This document shows positions 4,514-54,456 of a DNA stretch of 64,000 bases, one piece after another. Both the position numbers and the translations under genes were made by a program. The notes beneath the pieces are model-generated. The model was given only the letters and a program-made list of their open reading frames with translations, did not search any database and was not told the origin of the DNA. How positions within the stretch are numbered: position 1 is the first letter of the stretch; the number at the start of each line of letters is the position of its first letter. The stretch is from an uncultured Coriobacteriaceae bacterium (GTDB lineage Bacteria; Actinomycetota; Coriobacteriia; Coriobacteriales; Atopobiaceae), in the NCBI GenBank assembly GCA_902786015.1, contig CADAAU010000013.1, positions 62,001-126,000 of the forward strand, in the 5' to 3' direction.

Positions 4514-4707
4514 CGCGTGTCGCAAACGTTTGGCCAGGCTCCTCGGGAAGCCTGTGTCACCCATAGCTGCTATTTCTTGAGGCGCTTTGCACTATCGCAC
4601 AAAACCACAAGCGGTTCTTGAGCTGCGTTTGAATCGAAAACCATGGAATCCCCGGCATACGCTTGCGATACTTATCTCATGTTAAACACCATCGAAGGGA
4701 GATCACC

Positions 4708-4956
4708 ATGGATGAGGATCGTCAGGAAGTATTCGACGCGCTGTGCGAGCGCGCCAGCCAGCTCTTTGGCAAGGACCCCTCCGAGTTTACCCTCGACACC
4801 AAGTTCGAGGACCTCAACATCAAGTCCGTGCAGGTGAGCCAGATTACCACCTACCTTGAGGACGAGCTTGACGTCGAGGTACCTTACATGAAGTTCCGCC
4901 GCTGCGCCACCTTTGGCGAGGCCGTTGACTTCGTGGCCGACCTTCTGGACGAGTAG
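4708..4956 (+). CDS. Acyl carrier protein (stand-alone)
   Basis: 82-aa acidic four-helix carrier protein. The prosthetic-group Ser is Ser40 in FEDLNIKSVQVSQI, corresponding to the DSL motif but with K-S-V instead of D-S-L, so it is divergent from a housekeeping AcpP. The start ATG at 4708 is set by AAGGGAG at 4695-4701. The CocE-type hydrolase starts 10 nt after the stop, and its ribosome site AGGGAG overlaps this stop codon, so the two are translationally linked. No ketosynthase or acyl-transferase gene is in the window. Confidence 0.85.
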   Translation: MDEDRQEVFDALCERASQLFGKDPSEFTLDTKFEDLNIKSVQVSQITTYLEDELDVEVPYMKFRRCATFGEAVDFVADLLDE

Positions 4957-4966
4957 GGAGACGGGC

Positions 4967-6889
4967 ATGGCTTTTCTGGAACCCCGCATTCCCGAGGACT
5001 GGGTCCCCGTAACCGACAAGAAGCTCTCGGACCTCATTCAGATGACGGGCGAGGTCGCGAGCTTCAACGAGGACGAGTGCCCCGTCTACTGGGACCCCGA
5101 CACCGAAGGATACATCTTCCTGCACAAGGAGGAGTTTGGTGGCGCCGAGATGATGGCCGCCTACCGTGTTGCTCGTCAGCCGAACGACAACCAGGCCGAC
5201 GTCGACCTCTCTACCTCGGATGACCCCATGGCGCGCATGGGCCAGGGCTTCTGCCCGCCCTTTAACCCCCACACCTACGAGGTCGTGCCGGGTATCGTGT
5301 GCATGCAGGACCAAGAGGTCGTCATGCGCGACGGCACAAAGATTTATGCCGACATCTATCGCCCCGCAGGTGACGACGTGAAGTGCCCCACCATCGTGAG
5401 CTGGTCTTGGTTTGGCAAGCGTCCCGGCGACGGTATGAGTGAGTGGCAGATTATGGGCGTTCCGCCCCAAACCGTCTCGAAGTGCGCCAAGTTTGAGAGT
5501 CCCGATCCGCTGTACTGGTGCCACTACGGCTATGCCGTGGCAAACGTCGACGTGCGCGGTGCTGGCCACTCCGAGGGCAGTGTGCACATGTTTACGCACC
5601 AGGACCGCGAGGACGGCTATGACTTCGTCGAGTGGGTCGCCGAGCAGCCTTGGTCCAACGGAAAGATCGGCATGGCCGGCAATTCCGGCGTCGCCATGCA
5701 CCAGTGGGGCATTGCCTCCACGCAGCCGCCGCACCTGGCCTGCATCGCTCCTTGGGAGTCCACCACCGACCTGTATCGCGAGAGCTTCTTTGAGGGTGGC
5801 GTGCCCGCGCTCTCGTTCAACAAGTTCATCGCCGCGCAGGTTACCGGCCCCAACGGCGTGGACGACCAGGTCGCCATGGCAAAGATGTATCCCGACATGA
5901 ACCCCTACTGGGAGGACAAGCGCCCCAACTTCCGTGCCGTCAAGTGCCCCGTGTACCAGACCGCCGGTTGGAGCCACTTCCACCTGCCGGGCTCCATCAA
6001 CGCATACAACCGCTGCCGCTCGCACAATAAGTGGCTGCGCGCCCATCGCGACTTTGAGTGGCCCGACACCTACGATCCCAACAACCTCGAGGAGCTGCGT
6101 CGCTACTACGATCGCTACCTCAAGGACATCCACAACGGCTGGGAGATGACCCCGCGCGTGCGCATCGACGTCATGGACGGCTACGACGTGGACTATCAGG
6201 AGCGCAGGCCCGAGAAGGCATGGCCCATCAAGCGCACCGAGTATCGCAAGCTCTACCTCGATGCGTCCCAGACACTCGAGTCCGTGGAGACCGACCACGT
6301 GCAGACCTTCGTCGCTGGACCCGAGCCGGCGCAGGCCGAGGCCGTCGCCAAGTACAACCCGGTGGACGAGGAGGTCCGCTTCGAGTGGGTCCTGCCCGAG
6401 GATACCGAGATCACTGGTCACATGACGCTGCACCTGTTCCTCAGCTGCGAGGGCTGGGACGACATGGACCTCTTCATCAATATCCAGAAGGCCACGGCCG
6501 ACGGCGAGTGGGTGCCTTGGCTCACGCTTGACGAGCCGCATCCTGGCGCCTGGGGCAAGTGCCGCGTTTCTCGCCGCGAGCTCGATCGTCGCCTTACCCG
6601 CAAGCATCGTCCCGTGCTGGCCAACAAGAGCAGCCAGAAGCTTGCTGAGGGCGAGATTGTCGAGGTCGACATCGCCATCGTCCCGACGGCCCGCGTATAT
6701 CACAAAGGCGAGCGCTTCCGCATCCAGATTGCCGGCCGCTACATCCGTGAGGGTTGGTTCGAGCCGCTGTCTTGGGACGAGGAGGCCAAGGGTACGCACG
6801 TTATCCACACCGGTGGCGAGTGCCAGTCTTGGATCGAGATTCCGGTCATTCCGCCGCGCTATCAGGCTGGTGAGTATATCCATCGCTAA
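4967..6889 (+). CDS. CocE/NonD (X-Pro dipeptidyl-peptidase S15) family alpha/beta hydrolase
   Basis: 640-aa hydrolase of the cocaine-esterase/X-Pro-peptidase class. An N-terminal region of about 110 residues (WDPDTEGYIFLHKEEF) has no function I recognise. The alpha/beta-hydrolase part starts near VVMRDGTKIYADIYRP and has the nucleophile elbow GNSGVAMHQW with Ser240. The family usually reads G-x-S-Y-x-G here, so the elbow is variant. The likely acid and base lie near WLRAHRDFEWPDTYDP and the following YYDRYLKD. The C-terminal jelly-roll (X-Pro_dipept_C) runs from about 425, including EITGHMTLHLFLS and GERFRIQIAGR. There is no signal peptide, so it is cytoplasmic. It is in an operon with the ACP, suggesting an acyl-thioester, ester or amide substrate; that is inference. 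Confidence 0.85.
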   Translation: MAFLEPRIPEDWVPVTDKKLSDLIQMTGEVASFNEDECPVYWDPDTEGYIFLHKEEFGGAEMMAAYRVARQPNDNQADVDLSTSDDPMARMGQGFCPPFNPHTYEVVPGIVCMQDQEVVMRDGTKIYADIYRPAGDDVKCPTIVSWSWFGKRPGDGMSEWQIMGVPPQTVSKCAKFESPDPLYWCHYGYAVANVDVRGAGHSEGSVHMFTHQDREDGYDFVEWVAEQPWSNGKIGMAGNSGVAMHQWGIASTQPPHLACIAPWESTTDLYRESFFEGGVPALSFNKFIAAQVTGPNGVDDQVAMAKMYPDMNPYWEDKRPNFRAVKCPVYQTAGWSHFHLPGSINAYNRCRSHNKWLRAHRDFEWPDTYDPNNLEELRRYYDRYLKDIHNGWEMTPRVRIDVMDGYDVDYQERRPEKAWPIKRTEYRKLYLDASQTLESVETDHVQTFVAGPEPAQAEAVAKYNPVDEEVRFEWVLPEDTEITGHMTLHLFLSCEGWDDMDLFINIQKATADGEWVPWLTLDEPHPGAWGKCRVSRRELDRRLTRKHRPVLANKSSQKLAEGEIVEVDIAIVPTARVYHKGERFRIQIAGRYIREGWFEPLSWDEEAKGTHVIHTGGECQSWIEIPVIPPRYQAGEYIHR

Positions 6890-50840: not shown

Positions 50841-51008
50841 CGCAGCTCGGACAAACCTTAAAGCGATGACCCAAGACGTCGTTTTGACTGCCAAGCCTCC
50901 CAATTCTATTCCCGGTTCTTGATTTTCGGCCATGCGCACGACTCCTTCAGGACAAAAAGGCATCGCATCGGCTTAACGCATGCCTAACACAATTCTGGGA
51001 AATGGTGA

Positions 51009-51350
51009 CTTGTTAGCAACTATCAATTTCTCACAGACGAGCATGGCAACAAGCATGCTGGGAAGCTTGTTCTTTGCATCGGGCAGGGTGATCCAATGGG
51101 CCCATCCGGCACGAGTTCTTCGGCCGAGCAAGCCAACGGTGTTTCCGTTGCGGCTTCAACCACGAGCTACGAGTCGGGAACCGCGACCGCTACGCCGGCG
51201 ACTGGCAGCGCATACGTGTCGCCCACGGAGGCCGCGACTGCCGCCGCAACTCCCGCAACCTCGGACACCACCTCGCTCGCCGGCGCAATAGCCCCGGCTG
51301 TCTCCGCGCTCGGCGCCCTCGGCTTGGGGAAGGCCCTTCGTCGCAAGTAA
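51009..51350 (+). pseudogene. 5'-truncated remnant of a surface-protein gene
   Basis: The frame is open from 51009 (after a stop at 51006-51008) and ends with a C-terminus nearly the same as the intact protein at 51644-52864: YESGTATATPATG, AYVSPT, PATSD, SLAG, then hydrophobic residues and RRK. Nothing resembling the signal peptide or the Ala/Glu-rich region of the intact copy is upstream. A short reading from ATG 51096 (84 aa) is possible but would have no export signal, so I treat it as a decayed paralogue. Confidence 0.6.
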
Positions 51351-51392
51351 CATCGTCGGTCGAATCAAAAGCACTCATCCTTGCCTTGACCT

Positions 51393-51450
51393 GAGCTGGA
51401 ATCGCGTTTGGTGTGGGTTGGGCAGCCACATCAAACGCGATTTGCGCTCA
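51393..51450. repeat. Palindromic repeat family D, outlying copy
   Basis: GAGCTGGAATCGCGTTTG with complementary CAAACGCGATT...GCTC around CCACA/TGTGG; related to the array at 52934-53197. A decayed second copy starts near 51463. This lies in the gap between the pseudogene and the intact surface-protein gene. Confidence 0.6.
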
Positions 51451-51643
51451 AGAGACTCTGTTCTGAGCTGAGATTGCGTTTTCTGTGACAGTCCGATTCA
51501 CGCCAAACTGAATCCGAGTTCGGGGACAGGATTAGAAGAGAGAGCATTACGCAATTTATCGGTTGCATCATGTGGTAGGCTGGCTATGATATACAAAATA
51601 CGTCGAAACAAAATCTAAACCGACCTACGAAGGGAGATCGAAA

Positions 51644-52864
51644 GTGACCATCAGCAGGAGCAAGGTGGCGGCGGTGACCGCTTCTCTCGTGTTTGCGCTC
51701 TCAGGCGGAGTGGCGATTGCCGATGAGGTTACGGCCACTGCGCAGCCCACGGCCGAGGCTGCCGCGCAGGGGCAGGTGACGACGGAGACGCAGACGACGG
51801 GAGCCGAGGACGCAACGACCGGCGCGGCAACGGGCGACTCCGCTGTAGGCCAGGCTCAGGACAATGGCGAGGCCAGCCAGCAGGCTGCAGAGAAGGAGGA
51901 GGTCGACGGCGCGAAGGCCGACGAAGCTGCCGCAAAGGACGGGCAGCAGGCCGACGAGTCCAAGCCCGGTGAGGCGACTGACGTCCAGAAGGCCGAAGAG
52001 GTCAAGTCCGGCGATACGACTGACGCCCAGAAAGCGGACGGGCCTAAGACCGGCGGGACAGCGAATGCCAAGGACGCCGCAGGCTCCGGTGAGGCGGCCG
52101 CAACGGCCGACGACGTGGCCCTCGAGGCCCAGGTCGCAACGATGTGGAAGAGGGGCGATATCTTTGTGAACAACGGAGGGTTTGTAGAGAGAAACGACGC
52201 TCAAGCTGATGAGTCCAAGGTTGAGTGGATGGTGATCGAAGCGGATGTTCCCTCCGACATGAAGTATGTTGATGAGGATGGATACCGCATGTTCTATGGT
52301 GGCGTAAAAGCAAAGGTAGGCGGTAAGAGTCAATCGATTTCTTGGGCGAAGATCGGCGACAATGGCGAGCTTCTCTTTCCTGCGGACCAGTCTAAGTCAG
52401 CTCCACTGAGCTACATAAATACCGAGAACTATAAACTACTGAATAGTACCAACTTCCCCGTGACGCGTCTGCTCCACTACGACGCAGTCAAGGACGCGCT
52501 CGTACCGTATAACGGCGGATACTATTATCCGGGCGGGGAGTATGGTGCTCCAGGCATTTTTTATTATTCCTCTACGTCTGATCGCGAGGCTGGCCTTCTA
52601 ACACATGCCAACCAGGGAGGACTTCCGAACTCCGGTACAAGTGCTGTTGGCCCAGTTGCTACCGCTCCGATTACGGCCTCCCTATCTAACTACGAGTCTG
52701 GCACGGCAACTGCAACGCCAGCGACTGGCACCGCCTATGTTTCTCCTACGGCCGCCGAGACGACCCCGGCGACCTCGGATGCCACCTCGCTCGCTGGTGC
52801 CGCTGCAGCGGCAATCTCTGCGCTCGGTGCGTTTGTTGGTGCAAAGGCAATTCGCCGTAAATAG
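51644..52864 (+). CDS. Secreted surface protein with sorting-like C-terminus
   Basis: 406 aa. Start is GTG 51644 after AAGGGAG. Signal peptide MTISRSKVAAVTASLVFALS to GVAIADE (cleavage after AIA). Residues about 27-165 are low-complexity Ala/Glu/Asp/Lys/Gln with repeated xADxxKxGxxTDxQKA units. A folded region follows, WKRGDIFVNNGGFVERNDA to about 325, with many Tyr and Gly (YNGGYYYPGGEYG). The C-terminus is a Thr/Ala spacer, TPATSD, a hydrophobic stretch (SLAGAAAAAISALGAFVGA) and KAIRRK, the plan of a sortase substrate, but without LPxTG. Function unknown; probably displayed on the wall. Confidence 0.75.
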   Translation: MTISRSKVAAVTASLVFALSGGVAIADEVTATAQPTAEAAAQGQVTTETQTTGAEDATTGAATGDSAVGQAQDNGEASQQAAEKEEVDGAKADEAAAKDGQQADESKPGEATDVQKAEEVKSGDTTDAQKADGPKTGGTANAKDAAGSGEAAATADDVALEAQVATMWKRGDIFVNNGGFVERNDAQADESKVEWMVIEADVPSDMKYVDEDGYRMFYGGVKAKVGGKSQSISWAKIGDNGELLFPADQSKSAPLSYINTENYKLLNSTNFPVTRLLHYDAVKDALVPYNGGYYYPGGEYGAPGIFYYSSTSDREAGLLTHANQGGLPNSGTSAVGPVATAPITASLSNYESGTATATPATGTAYVSPTAAETTPATSDATSLAGAAAAAISALGAFVGAKAIRRK

Positions 52865-52933
52865 TACGGCCGTGGTCAAGTGGGGATAACTTCCCGACTT
52901 GCTTTGAGCTGACTAAGCGTTTCGTATGACTTG

Positions 52934-53197
52934 TTGAGCTGAGATCCCCTTTCGTGTGGCAAACCGACCCACACGAAAGGGGATCTCAGCTCAATAGTCT
53001 CTAGATTGAGCTGGATTTACGTTTCGTGTGGCGTCTTGAGCTGGGATTGACTTTCGTGAGGGTCTTTCAGCCACACAAAGCCCGATCCCGGCTCAGAGAG
53101 GCCGGTTTTGAGCTGGATTTTCGTTTCGTGTGGCGTCTTGAGCTGGGATTGACTTTTGTGTGGACCGTGCTGCCACACGAAACGAAATCTCAGCTCA
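52934..53197. repeat. Array of palindromic repeats, family D
   Basis: Starts at 52934, 53006, 53036, 53108 and 53138 each read TTGAGCTGRGATNNNN...TTTCGTGTGG or close. Right arms (complement) close at 52994, about 53099 and 53197. The unit at 52934-52994 is a perfect 26-bp inverted repeat with a 9-nt loop. The array fills the gap between the surface-protein gene and the IS, and a further right arm is present beyond the IS at 54449-54467. Confidence 0.8.
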
Positions 53198-53250
53198 GTC
53201 GGATCAGTTATTCACCAAAAACCGGTTTCGTGAGGCGGCTGGACTCTCAA

Positions 53251-54456
53251 AAACGAAAAGCTCTTTTAGACCAGAATTGACATGGCCGGAGTCCAATTGT
53301 TGTCCGGGCCCTCCCGTATAGTCGGTGTCGCCAAACATCCCGACAAAGCAGGAGGACCCGTATGTACGAGAGTGTACTACAGGGCGCGCTGGAGCTGCCG
53401 CTCGCGCAGAAGAAGTCGCTGATAGAGTGCCTGAAGGGCGCGGTGCTCGCGCAGATGTCGAGCGTGCACGCCGGCGACCCGTCCGAGTGCCCCCGCTGCC
53501 ACCACGGCCACGTGGTCAGGAAGGGGCGCGACGGCAAGGGTCGCCAGAGGTGGCTGTGCCGCGGCTGCGGGAGGACCTTCGGGACGAGCACGCTCGGGCT
53601 GCTAGCCCAGTCGAAGCTGGGACCGGCCGTCTGGGCTTCCTACGTAGAGCACATGGTGGAGGGCGAGTCGCTGCAGAGGTGCGCGGACCTGTGCGGCGTG
53701 TGCCTCAAGACCTCGTGGTTCATGCGAATGCGCGTGTGCGAGGTCATGCGCAACGTGCTCGCGCCGTTCCGCGGGGGCGCCGGCCTTTCCGTGCAGATCG
53801 ACGAGAAGTACCTGAGCGAGTCCTTCTGCGGCAACCGCGACCGCGCGCGGGTCAAGATGCCCAGGCAGGCGCACGCCAACGGGAACTCGGTGCGCAAGAG
53901 GGGGCTCTCCAAGCTCAAGGCGTGCGTCGTCACCCTGGTCAACGACCTCGGCGACTGCGCGTGCGAGGTCGTCGGGCGGGGCAAGCCCACGAAGGGCGAG
54001 GTCAAAGCGGGGATCGAAGGCTGCGACCTCGAGGGCTCGACGGTGACGACCGACTCGCTCGCGTCCTACGCGTCGCCGCTGAGGGACGCCGGGGTGGCGG
54101 CGCACAGCCGCTACAACGCGAGCGTCGGCGACGGCGACGGGGTGGGGATGGTCAACGCGCTGCACGAGCGGATGTCGTCCTTCCTCTCGCGGTTCAACGG
54201 GGTGTCGACGCGCAGGCTCCAAAGGTACATGTGGTGGTTCTGCTGGTCCGAGCAGGTGAGGAGGTCCGACTCCTCGTCGGTCGAGGCGTTGCGCGCCCAC
54301 GTCGCCAACGGCACCTACCGGGTGACGCGCAGGATGCTCACCGACGAGCCGCAGCCGTTCTGGGAGTACTGGGAGGGCAGGATGCCGGAGGTAACGGAGG
54401 ACGACCTTTGGGGACCGGAGGCGATGTCAATTCTGGTCTAAAAGAGCTAAACGAAA
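53251..54456 (+). mobile_element. IS1595-family insertion sequence with target duplication
   Basis: The element is 53259-54448 (1190 bp). Its 25-bp terminal inverted repeats (53259-53283 and 54424-54448) are perfect complements starting AGCTCTTTTAGACCAG. The direct repeat AAACGAAA stands at 53251-53258 and again at 54449-54456, an 8-bp target duplication as expected for IS1595. One transposase gene is inside. The insertion split a family D repeat. Confidence 0.95.
53362..54441 (+). CDS. IS1595-family transposase
   Basis: 359 aa, apparently intact. N-terminal zinc ribbon CPRCHHGHVVRKG and WLCRGCGRTFG, as in the IS1595/ISXO2 group. The catalytic part has IDEKYLSES, VTTDSLASY, and MVNALHERMSSFLSRFNGV with the STRRLQRYMWWF block that identifies the family (DDN/H-E type). 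The gene is richer in G+C than its surroundings, consistent with recent arrival. Its stop lies inside the right terminal repeat. A TATAGT shortly upstream may serve as -10. Confidence 0.95.
   Translation: MYESVLQGALELPLAQKKSLIECLKGAVLAQMSSVHAGDPSECPRCHHGHVVRKGRDGKGRQRWLCRGCGRTFGTSTLGLLAQSKLGPAVWASYVEHMVEGESLQRCADLCGVCLKTSWFMRMRVCEVMRNVLAPFRGGAGLSVQIDEKYLSESFCGNRDRARVKMPRQAHANGNSVRKRGLSKLKACVVTLVNDLGDCACEVVGRGKPTKGEVKAGIEGCDLEGSTVTTDSLASYASPLRDAGVAAHSRYNASVGDGDGVGMVNALHERMSSFLSRFNGVSTRRLQRYMWWFCWSEQVRRSDSSSVEALRAHVANGTYRVTRRMLTDEPQPFWEYWEGRMPEVTEDDLWGPEAMSILV

Follow-up and report, generated by a model that had tools for sequence, protein, structure and literature searches.

Surface proteins with LPXTG sorting signals (TIGR01167, PF00746) carry a signal peptide and end in a five-residue box, a hydrophobic segment and a basic tail. 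Relaxed or altered residues at P1', the position of the Gly in this box, are already known. LPXTS signals are documented in Streptococcus uberis, and an LPXXXD hexapeptide signal is described for its SrtA (Egan et al. 2010, as cited in PMC7862697). The SrtA of Streptococcus pyogenes binds and cuts both LPATS and LPATA (PMC9520033), Lactobacillus plantarum has an LPQTxE signal (PMC3619620), and Bacillus cellulosilyticus has LPXTA proteins together with class D sortases (PMC3617157). Class B substrates include NPKTGD in Bacillus anthracis, whose SrtB needs Asp at P2' (PMC11987632), and (S/P)PxTG in C. difficile, whose SrtB rejected LPETG and NPQTN in a set of assayed peptides that, NPQTN excepted, had only Gly at P1' (PMC4155245). 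The three papers found that name both Atopobiaceae and sortase concern other subjects, judging by their titles and abstracts. The notable part of the case described here is the mixture of Gly, Ala and Ser at P1' in a single genome.

The window, a stretch of 64,000 nucleotides that is part of contig C13 in the 3.49-Mb genome of an Atopobiaceae bacterium, encodes an intact surface protein, here called protein P1, and a broken paralogue (Table 1). Protein P1 consists of a signal peptide, an acidic low-complexity region, a small beta-rich domain, a linker and a sorting signal, in that order, a layout predicted with low confidence overall (AlphaFold model, mean pLDDT 44.7), in which the signal peptide is modelled as a helix at residues 8-18. 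Searches of Pfam and NCBIfam with the domain upstream of the linker gave nothing at E up to 1, and the model matched no PDB fold at an E of 0.001 or less. With its signal peptide and, at the C-terminus, a hydrophobic segment and a basic tail, protein P1 has the general layout of sortase-dependent proteins. The remnant departs from this layout because its N-terminus is absent: its open frame has no signal peptide, and the region upstream has no detectable homology to the N-termini of the paralogues.

Table 1. Features of the intact gene, the remnant and the full-length paralogues (window positions unless a contig is named)
Feature	Position	Strand	Details
Intact surface protein P1	51644..52864	+	406 aa; GTG start; purine-rich stretch upstream
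Probable Sec signal peptide of P1 (MTISRSKVAAVTASLVFALSGGVAIA-DE)	51644..51727	+	From sequence; kept by both full-length paralogues
Conserved linker motif of P1, YESGTATATPATGTAYVSPT	52691..52750	+	Seven proteins all have P-A-T-G and Y-V
TPATSD of P1, putative cleavage box (P4-P2')	52763..52780	+	Aligns with TPATGD, IPSTGD and TPSTAD of relatives
Hydrophobic segment and KAIRRK tail of P1	52787..52861	+	Helix 382-405 in the model; conserved tail
Paralogue remnant, C-terminal module without N-terminus	51009..51350	+	Open frame after TGA 51006-51008
TPATSD box of the remnant	51249..51266	+	From sequence
Full-length paralogue with the module	C1:80039-81295	minus	48% identical over its length; box TPATSD
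Full-length paralogue with the module	C2, about 236.8-237.7 kb		Box IPATSD

The initial annotation proposed that the intact gene and its broken neighbour share a C-terminal module laid out like a sortase signal, with PATSD in the place of LPxTG. The shared module is real: both proteins have TPATSD followed by a hydrophobic helix and an RRK tail, and these C-termini are 76% identical across 58-61 aa. The similarity extends about 35 aa farther upstream, since residues 314-406 of protein P1 match the remnant at 61%. The genome search recommended in that annotation recovered two more full-length genes with the same ending, on contigs C1 and C2 (module matches at E 1e-19 and 5e-7, respectively), and the module also ends two proteins in each of the relatives G001 and G009. 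This recurrence far exceeds chance and runs against the refutation named in that annotation, that the ending would occur in no other protein. A search for the module across named genomes gave no confirmed relative. An internal motif, YESGTATxTPATG, is conserved as well.

Homologues from the same genus have TPATGD, IPSTGD or IPATSD at the PATSD position. Those of G009 have Gly at P1' (TPATGD, IPSTGD), and those of the window's genome and G001 have Ser. Because Gly forms stand at the same position, PATSD can be read as an LPxTG-type box with Ser for Gly, which bears out the proposed layout. The literal LPxTG is absent, the box being TPATSD in protein P1, the remnant and the C1 copy, and IPATSD in the C2 copy; these signals thus differ from LPXTG in having Thr or Ile for Leu and Ser for Gly. 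The tail of protein P1 scores 14.7 bits against PF00746, below the cut-off of 20, and is not reported by TIGR01167, the NCBIfam LPXTG model. Some of the Gly-form homologues in the genus are above the TIGR01167 cut-off, and so is another TS form of the same genome, a TPKTSD tail (22 vs 15.9).

The variation is spread across the genus. Further surface proteins have TPSTGD, VPATGD or TPSTAD-like boxes before a similar hydrophobic segment and basic tail, and the near-identical tails of two relatives (28/33 residues identical) differ as LANTAD and LAKTGD. Over 113 hand-corrected signals from 16 genomes of the genus, P1' is Gly in 68, Ala in 23, Ser in 19, Asp in two and Thr in one; in the family's other genera, 36 signals have Gly in 29, Ser in four, and Ala, Asn and Gln in one each. 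These counts depend on the profile, in most cases one built on the Gly, Ser and Ala forms, and are lower bounds. Most of the genomes are split into many contigs, whose ends may hide genes. Asp occupies P2' in 147 of the 149 family signals counted. Gly and non-Gly signals have the same median spacing, 29 residues, between P1' and the C-terminus. In the window's genome, P1' is Ser in nine signals (one of them in the remnant), Gly in eight and Ala in two. Non-Gly residues are more frequent in the genus than in the other genera (45/113 vs 7/36, Fisher p 0.028), but this contrast is weak, the signals being non-independent and three of the seven coming from one genome. As a separate observation, locus L026 (genome G000, contig C40) encodes two very large surface proteins of 1538 and 1792 aa whose terminal signals are TPSTSD and TPRTAD, respectively; the 1538-aa protein has twelve List_Bact_rpt repeats.

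A control sample was obtained by masking P1' and P2' in 34 signals and searching eight genomes anew; only the 20 held-out signals of the genus found in this way are free of the profile's bias. Their P1' residues are Gly in ten, Ala in six, Ser in three and Arg in one, and all 20 have Asp at P2'. Gly, Ala and Ser thus make up 19/20, compared with 44% expected from the composition of the upstream linker (p 2e-6), and Thr is lacking at P1' although it makes up 24% of the linker (p 0.005); both p values assume independent signals, and some of these signals are orthologous to each other. Judged from these signals, PATSD is an instance of a relaxed tag that occurs throughout the genus, x-P/A-x-T-G/A/S-D.

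This tag resembles several described signals and is identical to none of those compared here. As cited, the S. uberis LPXXXD signal is likewise relaxed at P1' and has an invariable Asp as its sixth residue, but it is read by a streptococcal SrtA, whereas the enzyme here is likely of class B and P1' is almost wholly Gly, Ala or Ser. The L. plantarum signal also has a free P1' and an acidic P2', the latter being Glu rather than Asp, and its motif core differs. The LPXTA proteins of B. cellulosilyticus similarly form a full natural set in which P1' is not Gly; they are near-uniformly LPXTAT and belong with class D sortases, unlike the mixed Gly, Ala and Ser of one genome seen here. Class B substrates share the Pro-x-Thr core and the Asp after P1' that the B. 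anthracis enzyme requires, and the signals described here differ from them in a P4 that is mostly Thr or Leu and a P1' that is often Ala or Ser. By sequence, two attributes of class B substrates are present: Asp at P2', and a class B sortase that is kept across the lineage.

Five sortases in the genome exceed the PF04203 cut-off. An NCBIfam class scan covered four of them, including one of the two on contig C20. It assigned this C20 protein and the one on C10 to class C, placed the C11 protein nearest class D, and placed the C3 protein (gene at 4606-5640) nearest class B (TIGR03064, 148.5 bits, just below the cut-off of 153.75). The class B sortase has a match at E 3e-48 or better in all 61 family genomes sampled. 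It is found in 16/16 genomes of the genus, as a clear orthologue in 15 and only as a weak paralogue in G006. The positions taken as the catalytic His, Cys and Arg are kept in at least 35 of the 36 orthologues compared. Position 180, seven residues past the first His of an HH pair, is Gln in 14/14 orthologues from the genus and Met in 22/22 from other genera; position 151 is Ser or Ala in the 14 genus orthologues and Gln in 21 of the 22 others.

The suggestion that a dedicated sortase or an exosortase-like enzyme processes the PATSD proteins is not supported. None of the five PF04203 matches lies on the window's contig, and the best exosortase match in the genome (PF09721) is an open frame of 47 aa with 13.1 bits against a cut-off of 25.7. 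Moreover, Ser, Ala and Gly forms coexist in one genome and swap between homologues, so a general sortase that tolerates any small P1' residue is a simpler explanation than a dedicated enzyme. We therefore consider it probable that TPATSD is a variant sorting signal, cut most likely by the general class B sortase. The Sec signal peptide of protein P1 would direct its export, and the C-terminal helix with the basic tail would keep it in the membrane. The family-wide class B enzyme would then recognize a signal of the form [T/L/I/V][P/A]xT-[G/A/S]-D and cut between Thr and Ser (TPAT|SD), and the Thr of the cut protein would be joined to the cell wall. The fixed determinant seems to be the Asp at P2', not the Gly of P1', where a small residue would be tolerated. 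The near-invariance of this Asp, together with the need of B. anthracis SrtB for Asp at P2', suggests a class B sortase as the enzyme that reads it. Counting against this reading are the sub-threshold match of the tail to the anchor models and the peptide assays of C. difficile SrtB. More tentatively, it is possible, if somewhat doubtful, that the general class B sortase of the genus has exchanged Gly at P1' for Asp at P2' as the residue it reads, leaving Gly, Ala and Ser interchangeable; genus-specific residues near the active site, such as Gln180, may be part of such a change.

Four other sortase genes could act on these signals instead, namely the two of class C, the one nearest class D on contig C11, and the second C20 gene, which adjoins one of the class C genes. 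That a class C or class D-like enzyme does the cutting gains some support from a LAKTGD protein that is encoded inside the C10 class C (pilus-type) locus. However, some signals beside class C sortases have GG at P1'-P2' (LPSTGG, LPATGG), unlike the D type; D-type signals are present in 16/16 genomes of the genus, and the class B gene is present in every genome sampled, in a survey of that gene alone. We regard cleavage by one of these other sortases as unlikely.

It could also be argued that the signals with Ser or Ala have decayed and that their tail now serves as a plain C-terminal membrane anchor, as the broken neighbour gene bears the same tail. Decay would neither select a small residue nor keep the Asp, yet Ala and Ser account for 47 of the 52 non-Gly residues, Thr occurs once although it is the commonest linker residue, and Asp and spacing are the same as in the Gly forms; we consider this explanation improbable. 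Still less credible is a cut at the internal TPATG of the YESGTATATPATG motif, with TPATSD as mere linker. Its P-A-T-G is invariant across seven aligned proteins, but the next residue is Thr, Ser, Asn or Gly rather than Asp, the site lies about 16 residues farther from the membrane segment, and the motif is missing from most proteins with D-type signals. Cleavage at TPATSD by the class B sortase remains our preferred reading.

Intergenic inverted repeats of one family (TGAGCTGGGATT..TTTCGTGTGG and complement) occur near the gene of protein P1, at window positions 51392-51521 and 52904-53200, with one pair complementary at 26/26 positions. An IS1595-family element (53259-54448) is inserted next to these repeats; it encodes a 359-aa transposase (53362-54441) and has 29-nt terminal inverted repeats that are 97% complementary. 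Stretches resembling the intergenic repeats seemingly produce spurious open frames in loci L020, L021 and L026. Elsewhere in the genomes compared, two single open frames, L317:2184-4745 (G011, contig C2) and L318:2580-5924 (G013, contig C19), share one order of parts. From the N-terminus, a signal peptide and a short linker precede an internal sorting-like signal (LARTAD and LARTGD, respectively), which is followed by a hydrophobic segment, a basic loop, a second signal-peptide-like segment and a large domain; this domain is a 5'-nucleotidase by Pfam in the L317 frame and contains List_Bact_rpt and ChW in the L318 frame. By their sequence, both look like two exported proteins in one chain.

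If TPATSD and its variants are indeed read by the class B sortase, searches for the literal LPxTG would overlook many wall-anchored proteins in these bacteria; Ser or Ala stands at P1' in 11 of the 19 signals recovered from the window's genome. The occurrence of the same protein families with Gly, Ala and Ser would then provide a natural test set for what class B sortases recognize.
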